Shown here: positions 26,734 through 52,118 of the stretch, in pieces
Position numbering within the stretch: the stretch's first letter is position 1
Layout of the letters: every line of letters starts with the position of its first letter
DNA from: Tepidiforma bonchosmolovskayae
Lineage (GTDB): Bacteria > Chloroflexota > Dehalococcoidia > Tepidiformales > Tepidiformaceae
NCBI RefSeq assembly: GCF_008838325.1
Contig: NZ_CP042829.1
Coordinates: 1,054,001-1,118,000 of the forward strand
Reading direction: 5' to 3'
DNA: 64,000 bases
Made by a program: the position numbers and the translations under genes
Notes under the pieces: model-generated
Seen by the model: only the letters and a program-made list of their open reading frames with translations
Told to the model about the DNA's origin: nothing
Databases searched by the model: none

Positions 26734-26785
26734 GGGGATGCTCCCGGGAGAGGTGGTGTGGCGCCGGGTACAGCGGCCCGGGCCG

Positions 26786-26856
26786 GCCCAGGCGAGCGGC
26801 CATGCGCGAGGCCGGGCTCCCCCGCGGTGCTCCGCGTGACGCCAGTCGCCCGGCAG
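26786..26856 (-). ncRNA. ZTP (pfl) riboswitch upstream of purH
   Basis: On the minus strand CGACTGGCG (26848-26840), a hairpin CGCGG-AGCA-CCGCG, GGGGAGC, and finally CGCCTGGGC (26794-26786) occur in the order and spacing of the ZTP riboswitch aptamer, which senses the purine intermediate ZMP/ZTP. It ends about 50 bases before the purH ATG, the classical target of this class. The last conserved block can instead pair with downstream bases in a 7-bp hairpin (26793-26787 with 26782-26776), which is a plausible expression platform. A TACACT -10-like box lies at 26867-26862. Confidence 0.87.
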
Positions 26857-26916
26857 CTCTGAGTGTAGCAGCGGGCGGGGGTTCGCCGCAGGGAGCCGCG
26901 GGGGTAGGCTTGGGGC

Positions 26917-44454: not shown

Positions 44455-46341
44455 TCAGACCTCGCGGAACTCGCCTTCGACGGTGCCCTCCTCGGCGGGA
44501 CCGGAGCCGGACGGGCCGGACGAGGCGCTGCCGGCGCCGGCGGCGCCGTAGACGGCTTCGCCGATCTTCTGGAGGGAGGCGGAGAGGGCGTCCATGGCGG
44601 AGCGCATGCGGGCGACGTCATTGGACTCCATGGCTTCGCGGACGGCCTTCACCTTCTCCTCGACCTCCGTCTTCAGGTGGGACGGGATCTTGTCGGCGTT
44701 GTCGCGGAGGGTCTTTTCGGCCTGGTAGGCCATGGTGTCGGCGGTGTTCTTCACCTCGATGGCTTCGCGCTTGCGCCGGTCTTCTTCGGCGTAGAGCTCA
44801 GCCTCGCGCTGCATCCGCTCGATCTCCTCCTTGGTGAGACCGGAGGAGGGCTGGATGGTGATCTTCTGCTCGCGGCCGGTGCCCTTATCGCGGGCGGAGA
44901 CGGAGACGATGCCGTTGGCGTCGATATCGAAGGTGACTTCGATCTGGGGCACGCCGCGGGGCGCGGGCAGGATGCCATCGAGGATGAAGCGGCCGAGCGA
45001 TTTGTTGTCGGCGGCCATGGGCCGTTCGCCCTGGAGGACGTGGATTTCGACGCTCGGCTGGTTGTCGGCCGCAGTGGAGAAGATCTGGCTCTTGGAGGTC
45101 GGGATGGTGGTGTTGCGCGGGATGATCGGGGTCATCACGCCGCCGAGGGTTTCGATGCCGAGGGTGAGCGGGGTGACGTCGAGGAGGAGGACGTCCTTCA
45201 CTTCGCCCTTGAGGACACCGGCCTGGACGGCGGCGCCGACGGCGACGACCTCATCGGGGTTGACGCCCTTGTGGGGCTCTTTGCCGAAGAAGTCGGCGAC
45301 GAGCTTCTGGATGGCGGGCATGCGGGTCTGGCCGCCGACGAGGACGACTTCGTCGATATCGGATGCCTTCTTGCCGGCGTCGGCGAGGGCCTTTTTGACC
45401 GGCTCGAGGGTGCTCTGGAGCAGGTCGTGGACGAGCTGCTCGAGCTTCGAGCGGGTGAGGGTGATGTTGAGGTGCTTCGGCCCGCTGGCGTCGGCGGTGA
45501 TGAAGGGGAGGTTGATCTCCGTCTGCTGGGCGGAGGAGAGTTCGATCTTCGCCTTCTCGGCCTCGGCCTTGAGGCGCTGGAGGGCCTGGCGGTCCTGGCG
45601 GAGGTCGATGCCCTCCTGCTTCTTAAACTCGTCGATCAGCCAGTCAATGATGCGCTGGTCGAAGTCGTCGCCGCCGAGGTGGGTATCGCCGTTGGTGGAG
45701 AGGACCTGGAAGGTGCCGTCGCCGATCTCGAGGATGGAGATATCGAAGGTGCCGCCGCCGAGGTCGTAGACGGCGATCAGCTCGTCCTTCTTTTTATCGA
45801 GGCCGTAGGCGAGCGAGGCGGCGGTGGGCTCGTTGATGATGCGCAGGACTTCGAGGCCGGCGATCTTCCCGGCGTCCTTGGTGGCCTGGCGCTGCGCATC
45901 GTTGAAGTAGGCCGGGACGGTGATGACGGCCTCGGTGACCGGTTCGCCGAGGTAGGCTTCGGCATCGGCCTTCAGCTTCTGGAGGATCATGGCGCTGATC
46001 TCGGGCGGGCTGTAGGTGCGGCCGCCGAGGACGACCTGGCAGTCGCCGTTGGGGGCTGCGGTCACCTTGTAGGGGACGAGCTTGATATCGCGCTGGACTT
46101 CGGGGTCGTTGAACTTGCGCCCCATGAAGCGCTTGATGGAGAAGATGGTGTTCTCCGGGTTGGTGATGGCCTGGCGCTTGGCAACCTGGCCGACGAGCCG
46201 TTCGCCGGTCTTGGTGATGGCGACGACGGAGGGGGTGGTGCGGGCGCCTTCCGCGTTGGGGATAACGACGGGCTCGCCGCCTTCCATGACGGCCATGCAG
46301 CTGTTGGTGGTGCCGAGGTCGATGCCGAGAACTTTACCCAT
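44455..46341 (-). CDS. dnaK: molecular chaperone DnaK (Hsp70)
   Basis: A 628-residue Hsp70. The ATPase domain starts [20 protein letters not shown] and contains [35 protein letters not shown] and [15 protein letters not shown]. The substrate-binding domain has [19 protein letters not shown], and the C-terminal tail is acidic and rich in Gly/Ser. It folds nascent and stressed proteins together with GrpE, encoded 27 bases upstream, and a DnaJ that is not in this window. Controlled through the CIRCE element upstream of hrcA. Confidence 0.97.
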
Positions 46342-46368
46342 AGTGTGTGCTCCTGGTTTGGGGTGGTA

Positions 46369-46980
46369 TCAGGTGCCGGACTGGCCGGCTTCGGGAGTGG
46401 TGCCGTCGCCAACGATGACCATGGCGGGGCGGAGGACTTTGCCGCCGAGGTTGTAGCCCTTCTGGACGACGTGGAGGACGCGGCCTTCGGGGCCGGCCTG
46501 GCGGGCGATGGCTTCGTGGCAGGCCGGGTCGAACTGGGCGCCTTCGGCGGGGATTTCGCTGACGCCCATGGACTCGAGGAGCCGCCAGAACTTCTGGTGG
46601 ATGTTGATGATGCCCTGGACCCAGTTGAGGCCTGCGAGGTGCGAGTCGACGGAGGCGACGGCACGGTCGAGGTCATCGAACACGGGAAGCAGGTTGATGA
46701 CGAGGGCAGCGTTGGCGAGCCGGTGGGACTCGCTCCGCTCCTGTTCGACGCGGCGCTTGTAGTTGGCGAAGTCGGCGGCGGTGCGCTGCCAGTTGCGGTA
46801 GTAGGACTCGGCCTTTTCGCGCTCGGCCTCGAGCTGGCTGACCGGGTCGCCGGCTGCGCCTGCGGCCGGGTCTGCGGGGCGTTCGGCGCCGCCGTCGCCG
46901 GCGAGGGCCCCGGGGTCGGCGGTGCGCTCATCGGGGTTGCTGGTGGTTTCGACGGTGCGGTCGTCACCGGGTTCGCTCAT
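46369..46980 (-). CDS. grpE: nucleotide exchange factor GrpE
   Basis: A 203-residue GrpE. The first 55 residues are acidic and low complexity; the core coiled-coil and head show SYYRNWQRTAADFANYKRRV, LLPVFDDLDRAVASVDSHL, GAQFDPACHEAIAR and VHVVQKGYNLGGKVLRPAMV. It exchanges ADP on DnaK and may act as a thermosensor. It lies between hrcA and dnaK in one operon. Confidence 0.95.
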   Translation of the reverse strand: MSEPGDDRTVETTSNPDERTADPGALAGDGGAERPADPAAGAAGDPVSQLEAEREKAESYYRNWQRTAADFANYKRRVEQERSESHRLANAALVINLLPVFDDLDRAVASVDSHLAGLNWVQGIINIHQKFWRLLESMGVSEIPAEGAQFDPACHEAIARQAGPEGRVLHVVQKGYNLGGKVLRPAMVIVGDGTTPEAGQSGT

Positions 46981-47001
46981 GGTGCCTCCTGGTCGGCGGG
47001 G

Positions 47002-48036
47002 TCATTCGCCCCCGCCATAGAATTCGCGGATCAGTTCGGTGAGGATGTCGCTCACGTAGCGGACGTGGGCGACGGCATCGCTGTAGTGCATGCGGGTGGG
47101 GCCGAGCAGGCCGACGATGCCGGCGGCGCCGCCCGGGGGCCCGTAGCGGGCGAGGACGAAGGACATCTCCTGGTAGGGGCCCTCGCGGTTTTCATCGCCG
47201 ATGACGATGGCGACGCTGGCGTCATCGACCGCTTCGGCGGGGATGGCGTCGCGGAGGCGGCGCTCATCGACGGCCTCGAGGGCATCGAGGAGGCGGTCAG
47301 CCTTTTCGAATTCGGGCTGGCGGAGGAGTTCGCGGACGCCTTCGACGACGGGCTCCTCGACGCGGGCGGCCTGCTCGCGGAGGAGGAGGTCGGTGAGGGC
47401 GGCGATGACGGCGGATTCGACGGCGCCGAGCGGCTCGGCGGTCTCCGTGCGCGGGAGCTCGGCGACGGTCCTGCCGCCGAGTTCGGCGTTGAGCCGGAGC
47501 GCCAGGCGGGAGAGGTACTCCTGCGAGGCGGCGACCGGGAAATCGAGGATGCGCTGGTGGACGCCGCCGTCGGAGGTGACGACGACGAGGAGTGCGCGGG
47601 TTTCGGTCAGCTCGACGAGCTGGAGCTGCTTGAGGCGGACCTCGGCGACGCGGGGCTGGGTGACGAGCGCCATGTTGTGCAGGCTGTTGGCGAGGACGGA
47701 GGCGGCGAGGCCGACCCACTCCTCGAGGTCACGCGAGGCCTGGTGGAACTGGTGGAGGATGGTGAACTGCTCCTGGGGGGTGAGGGAGCGTTCGGGCATG
47801 AGGGCGGAGACGTAGTAGCGGTAGCCGCGGTGGGAGGGGATGCGGCCCGCGGAGGTGTGGGGGTGGGTGATCATGCCCTCGTCTTCGAGCGCGGCCATCT
47901 CGTTGCGGACGGTGGCGGGGGAGAGGGGCAGGCGGTGGCGCTCGACGAGGGCCTGCGAACCGACAGGCTGCGCCGAGCCGACGAAGTCGTCGACGATGAG
48001 TGCGAGGATGCGGGCCCGGCGCTCTGACAATGGCAT
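47002..48036 (-). CDS. hrcA: heat-inducible transcription repressor HrcA
   Basis: A 344-residue HrcA. The N-terminal winged helix has RARILALIVDDFVGSAQPVG, LSPATVRNEMAALEDEGMI and HTSAGRIPSHRGYRYYV, and the C-terminal region ends with the typical RYVSDILTELIREFY. HrcA binds CIRCE and needs GroEL for folding; the target site is just upstream. GAGGGG on the minus strand precedes the ATG at 48036, which is preferred over a TTG two codons earlier. First gene of the hrcA-grpE-dnaK operon. Confidence 0.96.
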   Translation of the reverse strand: MPLSERRARILALIVDDFVGSAQPVGSQALVERHRLPLSPATVRNEMAALEDEGMITHPHTSAGRIPSHRGYRYYVSALMPERSLTPQEQFTILHQFHQASRDLEEWVGLAASVLANSLHNMALVTQPRVAEVRLKQLQLVELTETRALLVVVTSDGGVHQRILDFPVAASQEYLSRLALRLNAELGGRTVAELPRTETAEPLGAVESAVIAALTDLLLREQAARVEEPVVEGVRELLRQPEFEKADRLLDALEAVDERRLRDAIPAEAVDDASVAIVIGDENREGPYQEMSFVLARYGPPGGAAGIVGLLGPTRMHYSDAVAHVRYVSDILTELIREFYGGGE

Positions 48037-48057
48037 TATCAACCCCTCGCTGCCATG

Positions 48058-49624: not shown

Positions 49625-50056
49625 ATGACAGGCCTGGTCCGCTGGAATCCGTTCGAGGAGTTCGGGAGCCTGGTGCCGCGGGAGTGGCTCGCGCGGTTCG
49701 GGTTCCCGGCAGAGACGGCCTGGAGCCCGCGCTGCGACGTGACGGAGCGGGATGATGCGATCGTGGTGCACGCCGAGCTCCCGGGCGTCGATGCGAAGGA
49801 CATGGAGGTGACGGTCGAGAACGGCGTGCTGACGCTGCGCGGCGAGAAGCGCTCGGAGCGGAAGGAAGAGGAGAAGGGCCGGACGTACAGCGAGCGGTTC
49901 TTCGGCTCGTTCGAGCGGCGGCTGGCGATCCCGGAGAGCGTGGACGCCGACCGGATCGAGGCGAAGCTGAAGGACGGGGTGCTGGAGGTGACGCTGCCGA
50001 AGCGGGCGCCGGAGCCGAAGGAGCCCGGGCGGAAGATCGAAATCAAGGCCGGCTGA
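49625..50056 (+). CDS. small heat shock protein Hsp20
   Basis: A 143-residue alpha-crystallin-type chaperone. The core has WSPRCDVTERDDAIVVHAEL, PGVDAKDMEVTVENGVLTLR, GEKRSE and ERRLAIPESVDADRIEAKLK with the terminal GVLEVTLPK. The IxI-type motif (KIEIKAG) is at the C-terminus. GGAGG precedes the ATG. It prevents aggregation of unfolded proteins, consistent with the nearby heat-shock operon, but no CIRCE is visible here. Confidence 0.94.
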   Translation: MTGLVRWNPFEEFGSLVPREWLARFGFPAETAWSPRCDVTERDDAIVVHAELPGVDAKDMEVTVENGVLTLRGEKRSERKEEEKGRTYSERFFGSFERRLAIPESVDADRIEAKLKDGVLEVTLPKRAPEPKEPGRKIEIKAG

Positions 50057-50247
50057 GCCGGCGGGGGCGCGCCGGGGCGCGGGAGGCCCCGGGGAGGGCG
50101 CGGGCGATGGTCGCGTTGACGGAGCAGAGCAGGGAGAGCGGGTGGTTCGTTGAGCTGGCGACGGGGCGGGTGGTGCGCCGCCCGCTCCCGGGGGCGCATA
50201 CTGGGAGCGCGGGGCTCCCGTCCCGCGCAGAAGAGGAGGCACCGATC

Positions 50248-50520
50248 ATGGCCGAGAACGACCTCGACCCGCGCGAAGACCTGAAGGGTGCGAAGGAGTT
50301 CATCCAGCACCTGCACCCGCTGAAGGCGATCAAGGAGGCGCTGATGGAGGGCGCCGAGCTGCTCGACCCGGCCGAAGCGGACCCACGGGCCATCGTGCCC
50401 GAGCCGGATACCGTCTCGGAGGTGGCCGAGGGCGGCCCTGGCGGGAAGCCGCCGAAGCCGCGGGAGGCGCACCCGATGCCGGACGCGAAGGAGCTGGAGA
50501 AGGAGCACCGGGGGTATTGA
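50248..50520 (+). CDS. small acidic hypothetical protein (90 aa)
   Basis: A 90-residue hydrophilic protein. It starts MAENDLDPREDLKGAKEFIQ and is rich in Glu, Asp, Pro and Lys, with no membrane segment. Residues 12-38 could form a helix. GAGGAGG precedes the ATG at 50248; an in-frame ATG at 50107 is less likely. Its charge resembles small stress proteins or intrinsically disordered partners. It stands after Hsp20 and before the structured RNA. Function unknown. Confidence 0.6.
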   Translation: MAENDLDPREDLKGAKEFIQHLHPLKAIKEALMEGAELLDPAEADPRAIVPEPDTVSEVAEGGPGGKPPKPREAHPMPDAKELEKEHRGY

Positions 50521-50562: not shown

Positions 50563-50590
50563 TTGACAACCGCTCCGCCCGATGTAGTTT
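50563..50590 (+). promoter_or_regulatory. promoter of the structured RNA unit
   Basis: TTGACA (50563-50568) is followed after 16 bases by TAGTTT (50585-50590), then an A/T-rich stretch. It is one of the clearest promoters in the window and has no annotated gene within 80 bases downstream. Confidence 0.6.
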
Positions 50591-50673
50591 TTTAATTGAG
50601 ATTGCGATAGGCGCCCGGTGCCGAAGAGGCCCGGTCCCCGCCGACTCGCAGAGACTCGAAAGGAGGGACGGAT

Positions 50674-50736
50674 ATGCGGAACAAGCTGCACGCCCTCTAC
50701 GGAGTCTTCATCGTGCAGAGGCCCGGCCTGCAGTAG
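50674..50736 (+). CDS. 20-residue peptide ORF inside the structured RNA
   Basis: ATG at 50674 with AAAGGAGGGACGG just ahead, one of the strongest ribosome-binding sites in the region. It encodes MRNKLHALYGVFIVQRPGLQ and stops with TAG. It may be a small protein or a leader peptide that controls folding of the downstream structure and the terminator before the gene at 51019. Confidence 0.4.
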   Translation: MRNKLHALYGVFIVQRPGLQ

Positions 50737-50937
50737 GCAGGCCGAACGCCAGCCGCCGCGGGCCCGTATCCACGGTGTTGCCCCAGGTGCCCGGGAGCAG
50801 ATGAAGTCCAGTGCGATGCTGGCGCCCCGGTTCGCTCCGTGAAGGAGCGGCAACGGATACGGAAGTCCCGGTGAACGGCGGCAACCTCCAGCCGGTGCAG
50901 CGCCCGGCGGCCGGCTGAGGAGGCGAACGGATACCGG

Positions 50938-50963
50938 ACAGGCCCCGCATCTGCGGGGCCTGT
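50938..50963 (+). terminator. intrinsic terminator of the structured RNA unit
   Basis: ACAGGCCCCGC and GCGGGGCCTGT form a perfect 11-bp stem with loop ATCT, followed by TAGCGTTTCT. It lies 55 bases before the next gene start at 51019, so it separates the RNA unit from that gene unless read through. Confidence 0.75.
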
Positions 50964-51018
50964 TAGCGTTTCTGCCCGGGCAGGCGCATTCGGCGGAGAC
51001 GCAGTAGGCTTGGTCGCC

Positions 51019-51474
51019 ATGCGACGGGTGGCCTTCCTGGCGGCGGTGCTGGCGCTGGCGGCAGCGGCGGTATTGCCCGGGGCGCGGGCGTACGAGGTGC
51101 AGACCGTCGAGGTCTCGGAGGGCGGATTCAACCCGACGGTGTGCCAGATGAACCGGGAGTACCTGCGGTTCAAGAACGTGGGGAGCACCCCGCGGCGGGT
51201 GGTCTGGCGGCCGCCGACCCCGGGCGGGGAGCCGCTCTTCGACAGCGGCTGGCTGGCGCCGGGCGAGGTTTCGAACGCGGTGTACATGGGCTTCCCCGGG
51301 ACGTTTTGGTTCGAGGACTTTGAGAACGCGGGCAATTTCGTCATCGTGAAGACGCCGGTGTACTCGGCGACCTGGCCGGTGGAGTGCTCGCCGGACCCGG
51401 CGAAGCGGCCGCCGGCGCCGCCGTGCACCGGTGCGGCGCACTGCCTGCGGGTCCCGGGCGTGGCGATGGACTGA
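51019..51474 (+). CDS. secreted cupredoxin-like small protein, first of a tandem pair
   Basis: A 151-residue exported protein. The signal peptide is RRVAFLAAVLALAAAAVLPG. The mature part begins YEVQTVEVSEGGFNPTVCQM, then NREYLRFKNVGSTPRRVVW, and continues with beta strands, as in cupredoxin/EfeO-type beta-sandwich domains that begin with a similar I-x-V-x-x-x-G-F-x-P-x-x. Two C-terminal cysteines (VECSPDPAKRPPAPPCTGAA and GAAHC) follow. The next gene is a paralogue. The Met and His ligands of type-1 copper proteins are not evident, so it may bind something else. Confidence 0.75.
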   Translation: MRRVAFLAAVLALAAAAVLPGARAYEVQTVEVSEGGFNPTVCQMNREYLRFKNVGSTPRRVVWRPPTPGGEPLFDSGWLAPGEVSNAVYMGFPGTFWFEDFENAGNFVIVKTPVYSATWPVECSPDPAKRPPAPPCTGAAHCLRVPGVAMD

Positions 51475-51581: not shown

Positions 51582-52118
51582 ATGAGCGAACACCGCTTCC
51601 GGCCGCTGATCGCGGCCATTGCGCTCGCCATGGCGCTCGCGGGCGGGCTGAGCGTGGCCTTCTTCGGCGCGGCGACGGAATCGGCGTCGGCGTACGACCG
51701 GTACACCATCGAGGTGAGCCGCGAGGGGTTCAACCCGACCACCTGCCGAATCAACCGGGGCGACGAGATCCAGTTCCTGAACGTGGACGCGGTGCCGCTG
51801 CGGGTCTACAAGCCCGGACACGGCGGGCTGCCGGCCGACCCGGATTTCGTGCTCCAGCCCGGCGAACGGTCAACGGTGTTCAGCTACACGGCGGGCACAA
51901 CGGACCGGTACTACACCGACAGCGGGCAGTCGGTGGAGGTGCTGACGCCGCCGCGTTCGAACACCTGGCAGACGTCGTGCGCGAAGGAGGCCCCGACGCC
52001 GACGCCGACCCCGACCCCGACCCCGACGCCGCCGGGCGGCGGTGCGCCGCCGAAGCCGGCGCGCTGCTGGGGGAACGGGTGCGCAGTGATGCCGAACCTG
52101 GCATCCGATGGGGAGTAG
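51582..52118 (+). CDS. secreted cupredoxin-like protein, second of a tandem pair
   Basis: A 178-residue exported protein whose core repeats the preceding one: IEVSREGFNPTTCRINRGDE, QFLNVDAVPLRVYKP, then beta strands and TWQTSC. It has a signal peptide (LIAAIALAMALAGGLSVAFF), and the C-terminus carries a PTPTPTPTPTPTP stretch and a final Cys pair (ARCWGNGCAVMP). GGAGG precedes the ATG. The shared GFNPTxCxxN motif marks a small family of unknown function. Confidence 0.75.
   Translation: MSEHRFRPLIAAIALAMALAGGLSVAFFGAATESASAYDRYTIEVSREGFNPTTCRINRGDEIQFLNVDAVPLRVYKPGHGGLPADPDFVLQPGERSTVFSYTAGTTDRYYTDSGQSVEVLTPPRSNTWQTSCAKEAPTPTPTPTPTPTPPGGGAPPKPARCWGNGCAVMPNLASDGE

Follow-up and report, generated by a model that had tools for sequence, protein, structure and literature searches.

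The question raised by this locus is whether some 370 nucleotides lying between promoter and terminator signals in Tepidiforma bonchosmolovskayae make a structured RNA, a small peptide or both, and whether the product serves a neighbouring gene. The genus belongs to the Tepidiformaceae of the Chloroflexota (NCBI taxonomy) and the genome is a single contig of 2.75 Mb; the window is the whole stretch of 64,000 nucleotides of this contig that was analysed. The features on which the argument rests are as follows.

50563..50568 (+): -35 element TTGACA; full hexamer in 21 of 24 single-ORF homologues, TTGAC in all 24
50585..50590 (+): likely -10 element TAGTTT after a 16-nt spacer, by eye
50660..50666 (+): Shine-Dalgarno (SD) site AAGGAGG; SD-like in 24 of 24 homologues
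50674..50736 (+): short ORF encoding MRNKLHALYGVFIVQRPGLQ, one of a family of conserved peptides
50701..50704 (+): SD-like GGAG within the short ORF, 8 nt ahead of the GTG of codon 14; conservation of codon 10 GGA
50725..50743 (+): P1 hairpin GGCCTGC-AGTAG-GCAGGCC with the stop codon in its loop; covariation
50753..50882 (+): long-range rod enclosing P2 and P3 at its apex; independent folds and arm swaps
50791..50830 (+): P2 arm with inner hairpin CCAGTGCGATGCTGG; alignment A4 and covariance model R1
50833..50849 (+): P3 hairpin CGCTCC-GTGAA-GGAGCG; pairing in 100% of cells, double changes seen in two pairs
50889..50917 (+): P7 hairpin CAGCCGG/CCGGCTG with CGCCCGG between the arms; CGCCCGG lies 3' of P3 in 14 of 24 homologues
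50938..50963 (+): GC-rich terminator hairpin ACAGGCCCCGC-ATCT-GCGGGGCCTGT; same type in 20 of 24 homologues

An initial sequence-only reading had proposed that about 370 bases form a discrete structured RNA between a promoter and a terminator of their own. This part stands, since both signals are conserved in relatives, although the consensus scans were negative: the promoter scan returned none at threshold, the -35 element falling below it, and the sole terminator that the terminator scan found lies elsewhere, not at the RNA locus. At the -10 position the relatives carry TANTGT or TARGTT (by eye), and a terminator hairpin of the form CAGGCCCC..GGGGCCTG(T/G)T closes 20 of the 24 single-ORF homologues.

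The short ORF is the most conserved part of the gene. When 61 genomes were searched at the DNA level, the RNA gene was matched over most of its length in four of five genomes of the same genus and partly in other genera, the similarity shrinking to the short ORF in distant ones. The ORF of the window encodes 20 residues; family peptides have 14-21 residues and follow the pattern (R)SKLHAxYGV(W/F/L)IVQ, other members read being MRSKLHAVYGVLIVQRSGLH, MRSKLHAFYGVWIVQS, MRSKLHAVFGVFIVQR and MMKVKLHNLYGVLIVQREGSR. Over codons 2-15, in 17 sequences of which several come from the same genus (136 pairs), pS was 0.418 and pN 0.138 in the coding frame, against pS of 0.18 and 0.14 versus pN of 0.19 and 0.20 in the two other frames. 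Because substitutions are mainly synonymous, and in the coding frame only, the ORF bears a coding signature and is under purifying selection. The start codon is kept in 24 of 24 homologues. Six family members had no match in Pfam or NCBIfam, and four peptide strings had none in the literature searched.

The RNA-peptide gene is found across one heat-loving Chloroflexota family and almost nowhere else. The peptide pattern matched 25 of the 38 family genomes, and a reversed control pattern gave no match. A mismatch-tolerant pattern added G005, G015 and four genomes of genus g13, and a g13-specific pattern three more, so that family members of the peptide occur in 34 of 38 genomes; of the added loci, the ORFs of L195, L199 and L200-L203 were read, the three last g13 matches being counted by pattern alone. 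No peptide pattern matched G010, G013, G017 or G036 among these 38. In the class as a whole the pattern occurred in 31 of 393 genomes, six of them outside the family, of which only G276 and G269 seem to be genuine relatives; the matches L085-L087 and G120 were judged to be chance. A draw of 400 genomes from the phylum gave its three family members, own genome included, plus G131, also judged a chance match. The exact pattern recovered 32 stretches from the GTDB contig collection; those with an ORF that fits the family carry the labels Dehalococcoidia, Chloroflexi/Chloroflexota, Tepidiforma, Thermoflexaceae, Anaerolinea or simply 'bacterium', and the matches outside the Chloroflexota were judged to be chance. 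Tepidiforma flava and a Tepidiforma MAG are among the named records with the pattern. A mobile or viral element was considered and rejected: a pattern scan of viral contigs and a distant search of plasmids and phages both gave no match.

How much RNA structure surrounds this peptide? All helices named in the sequence-only reading are present: CCGTATCC (50764-50771) with GGATACGG (50855-50862), the stem that closes the rod, GTTGCC (50777-50782) with GGCAAC (50849-50854), also part of the rod, GCTCC-GTGAA-GGAGC (50834-50848), and CAGCCGG (50889-50895) with CCGGCTG (50911-50917). Its view that there is more structure than chance would give was upheld by folding and by comparison. The MFE structure of 50596-50970 (375 nt) contains the long-range stem at z -4.69, and 0 of 100 dinucleotide shuffles folded as well. 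For the inner part, mean z over the 24 homologues was -1.46; because plain folding energy is only modestly low here, the case for RNA structure rests on covariation, not on stability. The reading had looked to compensatory change in relatives, and this was found in both P1 and P2/P3. In P1 (24 aligned sequences, 23 distinct), 96.9% of cells are paired with 19 double-change cells, a covariation score reached by 0 of 500 shuffles, and sliding the partner lowers pairing to 24-44%; P1 is unexceptional on pairs with a double change (149/500 shuffles) and on pair types (234/500). In P2/P3 (alignment A4, 17 sequences), 95.5% of cells are paired and 6 of 16 pairs show double changes around a strongly conserved UCGC..GCGGC core; the covariation score is 0.210 vs 0.129, with 0 of 500 shuffles as high, and falls when the partner is slid. 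A4 replaced alignments A1 and A3, which had register shifts, and three of its sequences were trimmed by one base for register.

A covariance model of P2/P3, R1, from which G024, G026b, G019, G009, G011, G023 and G018 were excluded, gave 26 matches at E 0.1 or better among the 393 class genomes. Those at E 2e-7 or better comprise 17 loci, all of them training loci; the model also found untrained G026 and G018 at the expected place with E 0.02-0.04, and its remaining matches are weak and probably chance. It missed G009, G011, G014, G019 and G024, and gave for G023 only a weak match on another contig. For the rod, a whole-length MAFFT alignment (A5) was too poor for pair counts and independent MFE folds were used instead: at least 16 long-range pairs form in 22 of 24 sequences, whereas G007 has 10 and G006 has none. 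With a shuffled 3' arm, as many rod pairs arose in at most 5 of 100 trials for only 12 of the 24 sequences. When arms were swapped among 15 sequences, at most two per genus, cognate arms paired better, with 0 of 20000 permutations reaching as low a mean duplex energy. The covariation of P1 and P2/P3 shows selection on RNA structure, not a function. The alternative fold that had been suggested through a second GGATACCGG at 50929-50937 did not hold up, the arm being kept in G004 only and not in G001-G003 or other genera.

That the RNA fits no known class was confirmed. Rfam release 15, with tmRNA, RNase P, SRP, HEARO and 6S included, gave no gathering-level match in the window for this RNA, nor at gathering for ten loci with homologues. 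A tmRNA was rejected: ARAGORN finds no tRNA or tmRNA at the locus, the ORF has an SD site and an ATG where a tmRNA tag frame has no start codon, and the over-cut-off match of the tmRNA model sits elsewhere in the own genome, as does that of the RNase P RNA model (281.9 bits), which was rejected likewise. Positions 50859-50882 resemble at 92% a 24-base stretch of many genomes, which we take to be 23S rRNA; the similarity was judged to be chance, not being conserved in close relatives. The 6S RNA model had no match at E 1 or better in the whole own genome and matched 6 of 14 control genomes, and 6S RNA may be absent or diverged in this lineage.

The surroundings bear on whether the RNA serves a neighbour. 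Upstream, 49625-50520 holds an Hsp20 gene (Pfam) and a small unassigned ORF, and downstream lie secreted-looking ORFs at 51010 and 51582, without Pfam match. A meaningful link to these stress and secreted-protein genes had been supposed, and is not supported, the neighbours being different in other genera. The next downstream gene is convergent in nine genera (L041, L042/L128, L043, L134, L135, L123, L124, L126 and L199) and on the same strand in g1, g8, g13, G026 and G006, as judged with a GC-position gene caller whose calls are approximate in such GC-rich DNA; the call is ambiguous in G023 (genus of G011). Named by eye from their sequences, the downstream products are unrelated between genera and include an alpha/beta-hydrolase, thiolase, GNAT, MenA/UbiA, an LLM monooxygenase, UbiE, threonine synthase and RpiB, among others. 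By sequence comparison, then, the RNA gene is inherited across one bacterial family while the adjoining genes change. Since the neighbourhood differs from genus to genus, with a convergent gene next in nine, the locus is a stand-alone gene, not an attenuator.

Against this background several explanations can be weighed. It is rather unlikely that the locus is a small-protein gene only, the peptide being its product and the 3' structure doing no more than stabilising and ending the mRNA. The peptide is indeed more conserved than the RNA, and in the g13 form most of the rod is lost whereas P1 and the terminator hairpin are retained; however, the covariation of P1 and P2/P3 across genera and the UCGC..GCGGC core exceed generic mRNA protection, and the constraint at the nucleotide level on codon 10, described below, also speaks against a purely coding role. 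A leader peptide with an attenuator controlling the downstream gene would account for the succession of short ORF, stop-codon hairpin and terminator hairpin, and a same-strand cupredoxin-like gene follows in two genera, rpiB in g13 and a 4-hydroxyphenylacetate-hydroxylase-like gene after some tandem-ORF copies (all by eye). We nevertheless consider it quite improbable, given that an unrelated gene follows from one genus to the next, convergent in nine of them, and that the tandem-ORF copy of the own genome has been kept although the hydroxylase-like gene seen elsewhere is missing there. Transcription attenuation in particular was rejected for the lack, in those nine genera, of a same-strand gene downstream to be regulated.

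The shortness of the conserved peptide, its basic start and hydrophobic end, and the additional tandem peptide of ten genomes might suggest the mRNA of a type I toxin, a peptide signal or the precursor of a modified peptide. Neither a hydrophobic span as long as in membrane toxins nor an antisense partner was seen, however, and no shared modification or export gene was noticed alongside; with no Pfam or NCBIfam match either, and absence from the viral contigs, plasmids and phages searched, this explanation is very improbable. A purely non-coding RNA would explain the covarying structure, and the sequence-only reading had treated the 20-codon frame as incidental. Yet that frame proved to be the most conserved part, under purifying selection, and with frame-specific synonymous change and both start codon and SD-like site in 24 of 24 homologues, an incidental frame is barely conceivable.

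We favour a peptide-coding RNA whose 3' structure would also have a function of its own, that is, a dual-function RNA, at a probability of roughly 60%. Its geometry invites a more specific proposal. Codon 10 is GGA in 23 of 24 homologues and GGG once, and GGA makes up 205 of 3186 Gly codons (6.4%) in neighbouring ORFs. Substitutions of this glycine to Gln, Glu or Arg keep purine-rich DNA (CAGGT, GAGGT, CGAGT), and codon 10 is constrained at the nucleotide level. Codon 14 is GTG in 24 of 24; this is less telling than GGA at codon 10, because GTG accounts for about 40% of nearby Val codons and G015 has GTT there. The SD-like site lies 8 nt before the GTG and the first P1 pair 12 nt after it; alignment A2 is gap-free here, the hairpin of G018 being in a different register. 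SD-assisted pausing and frameshift cassettes such as dnaX have an SD-like site behind and a hairpin ahead of the ribosome. With codon 14 in the P site, the arrangement here would likewise place the SD-like site behind and P1 ahead. Programmed frameshifting itself was rejected: the SD-like site and hairpin fit, but no slippery heptamer was seen (by eye). Two pairings were also discarded, a hairpin between codons 5-6 and 14-15 (CUGCAC/GUGCAG), which is mismatched in half of the sequences, and pairing of the ORF end with GGCAC 3' of P1, which is not kept in genus g1 (by eye).

The dual-function RNA gene would act in trans, through its peptide, its RNA or both. A ribosome would pause while GUG-CAG (codons 14-15) fills its P and A sites, because the SD-like GGAG precedes GUG by 8 nt, P1 starts 12 nt after the first base of GUG, and the conserved nascent residues GV(W/F/L)IVQ would stand at the peptidyl-transferase end of the tunnel. 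Pause or termination would then decide whether P1 and the 3' rod fold, and the activity of the RNA would be gated by translation status. We regard the pause at GUG-CAG, with its control of P1 and rod folding, as possible but doubtful. The wider claim of a new trans-acting RNA class with the translating ribosome as a working part is unlikely; there a ribosome held by the internal SD-like site, by the nascent chain and by the hairpin at the stop codon would decide the fold of the 3' rod, and the free RNA would sense the state of translation rather than lead a neighbouring gene. If translation does gate the RNA, leader-peptide logic would be extended from cis to trans; whatever the mechanism, an unannotated gene combining a tiny conserved peptide with a covarying RNA structure is kept by almost the whole family. 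Since named Tepidiforma species exist, its expression and translation are directly testable.

Two variant forms accompany the single-ORF gene. A tandem-ORF relative occurs in ten genomes, that of the window included (C1:2,497,855): its first peptide is HA(x)(F/Y)GVWIVQ or similar, followed by a second ORF with its own SD site, encoding for example MKVKLHALYRVWFGPIVGSR or VKHRIHAWLRRWHRPM, and then by P1. In g1 and g8 it follows an htpX-like gene (by eye), and the own-genome copy (C1:2497855-2497971, L193) likewise lies beside an htpX-like gene. Single-ORF and tandem-ORF forms stand about 10 kb apart in one genome (L120, G026:C6:195000-214500). The short form of g13 consists of ORF, P1, a short stem region and a terminator hairpin. 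The 3' parts of these two forms are different, so the RNA is evolving faster than the peptide does.

As a family the gene appears new, because it has no Rfam, Pfam or NCBIfam match and the four peptide strings have no match in the literature searched; as a kind it resembles dual-function RNAs. SgrS/SgrT, RNAIII/delta-haemolysin, SR1/SR1P and VcdRP, whose peptide VcdP has 29 residues, are small RNAs of this kind. Like them, the gene would give one short transcript, here predicted from sequence, that combines a small ORF with a structured part and is bounded by a promoter and a terminator of its own; unlike them, it has a shorter peptide and an ORF that ends on a hairpin. We know of no sequence relation between them. 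With the arrest leader peptides TnaC, ErmCL and SecM it shares a short ORF, conserved residues near the 3' end and a hairpin by the stop codon. The V-(F/W/L)-I-V stretch may resemble IFVI of ErmCL, and one second peptide of the tandem form contains what we take to be the KWFN of TnaC. Unlike these leaders, the RNA gene is not upstream of a fixed target gene, and its arrest is predicted from geometry. OLE, GOLLD, ROOL and HEARO are similar in having several hundred nucleotides, long-range helices, junctions and a narrow distribution, but the present gene differs from them in its conserved ORF and its lack of an Rfam gathering match. A search of PMC10284905 for transcriptome terms gave none.

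Some further observations concern the neighbourhood. The adjacent ORFs 51010-51474 and 51582-52118 share a motif like EVSxxGFNPxxCxxNR, and the former is kept 3' of the RNA in genera g1 and g8. On the minus strand of the window, the DnaK, GrpE and HrcA genes (Pfam) form one block at 44455-48042, and a ZMP/ZTP riboswitch lies at 26779-26859 (48.4 bits vs a gathering score of 39). A SAM riboswitch (L135, 5895-6006, minus strand) is found close to one homologue of the RNA gene.
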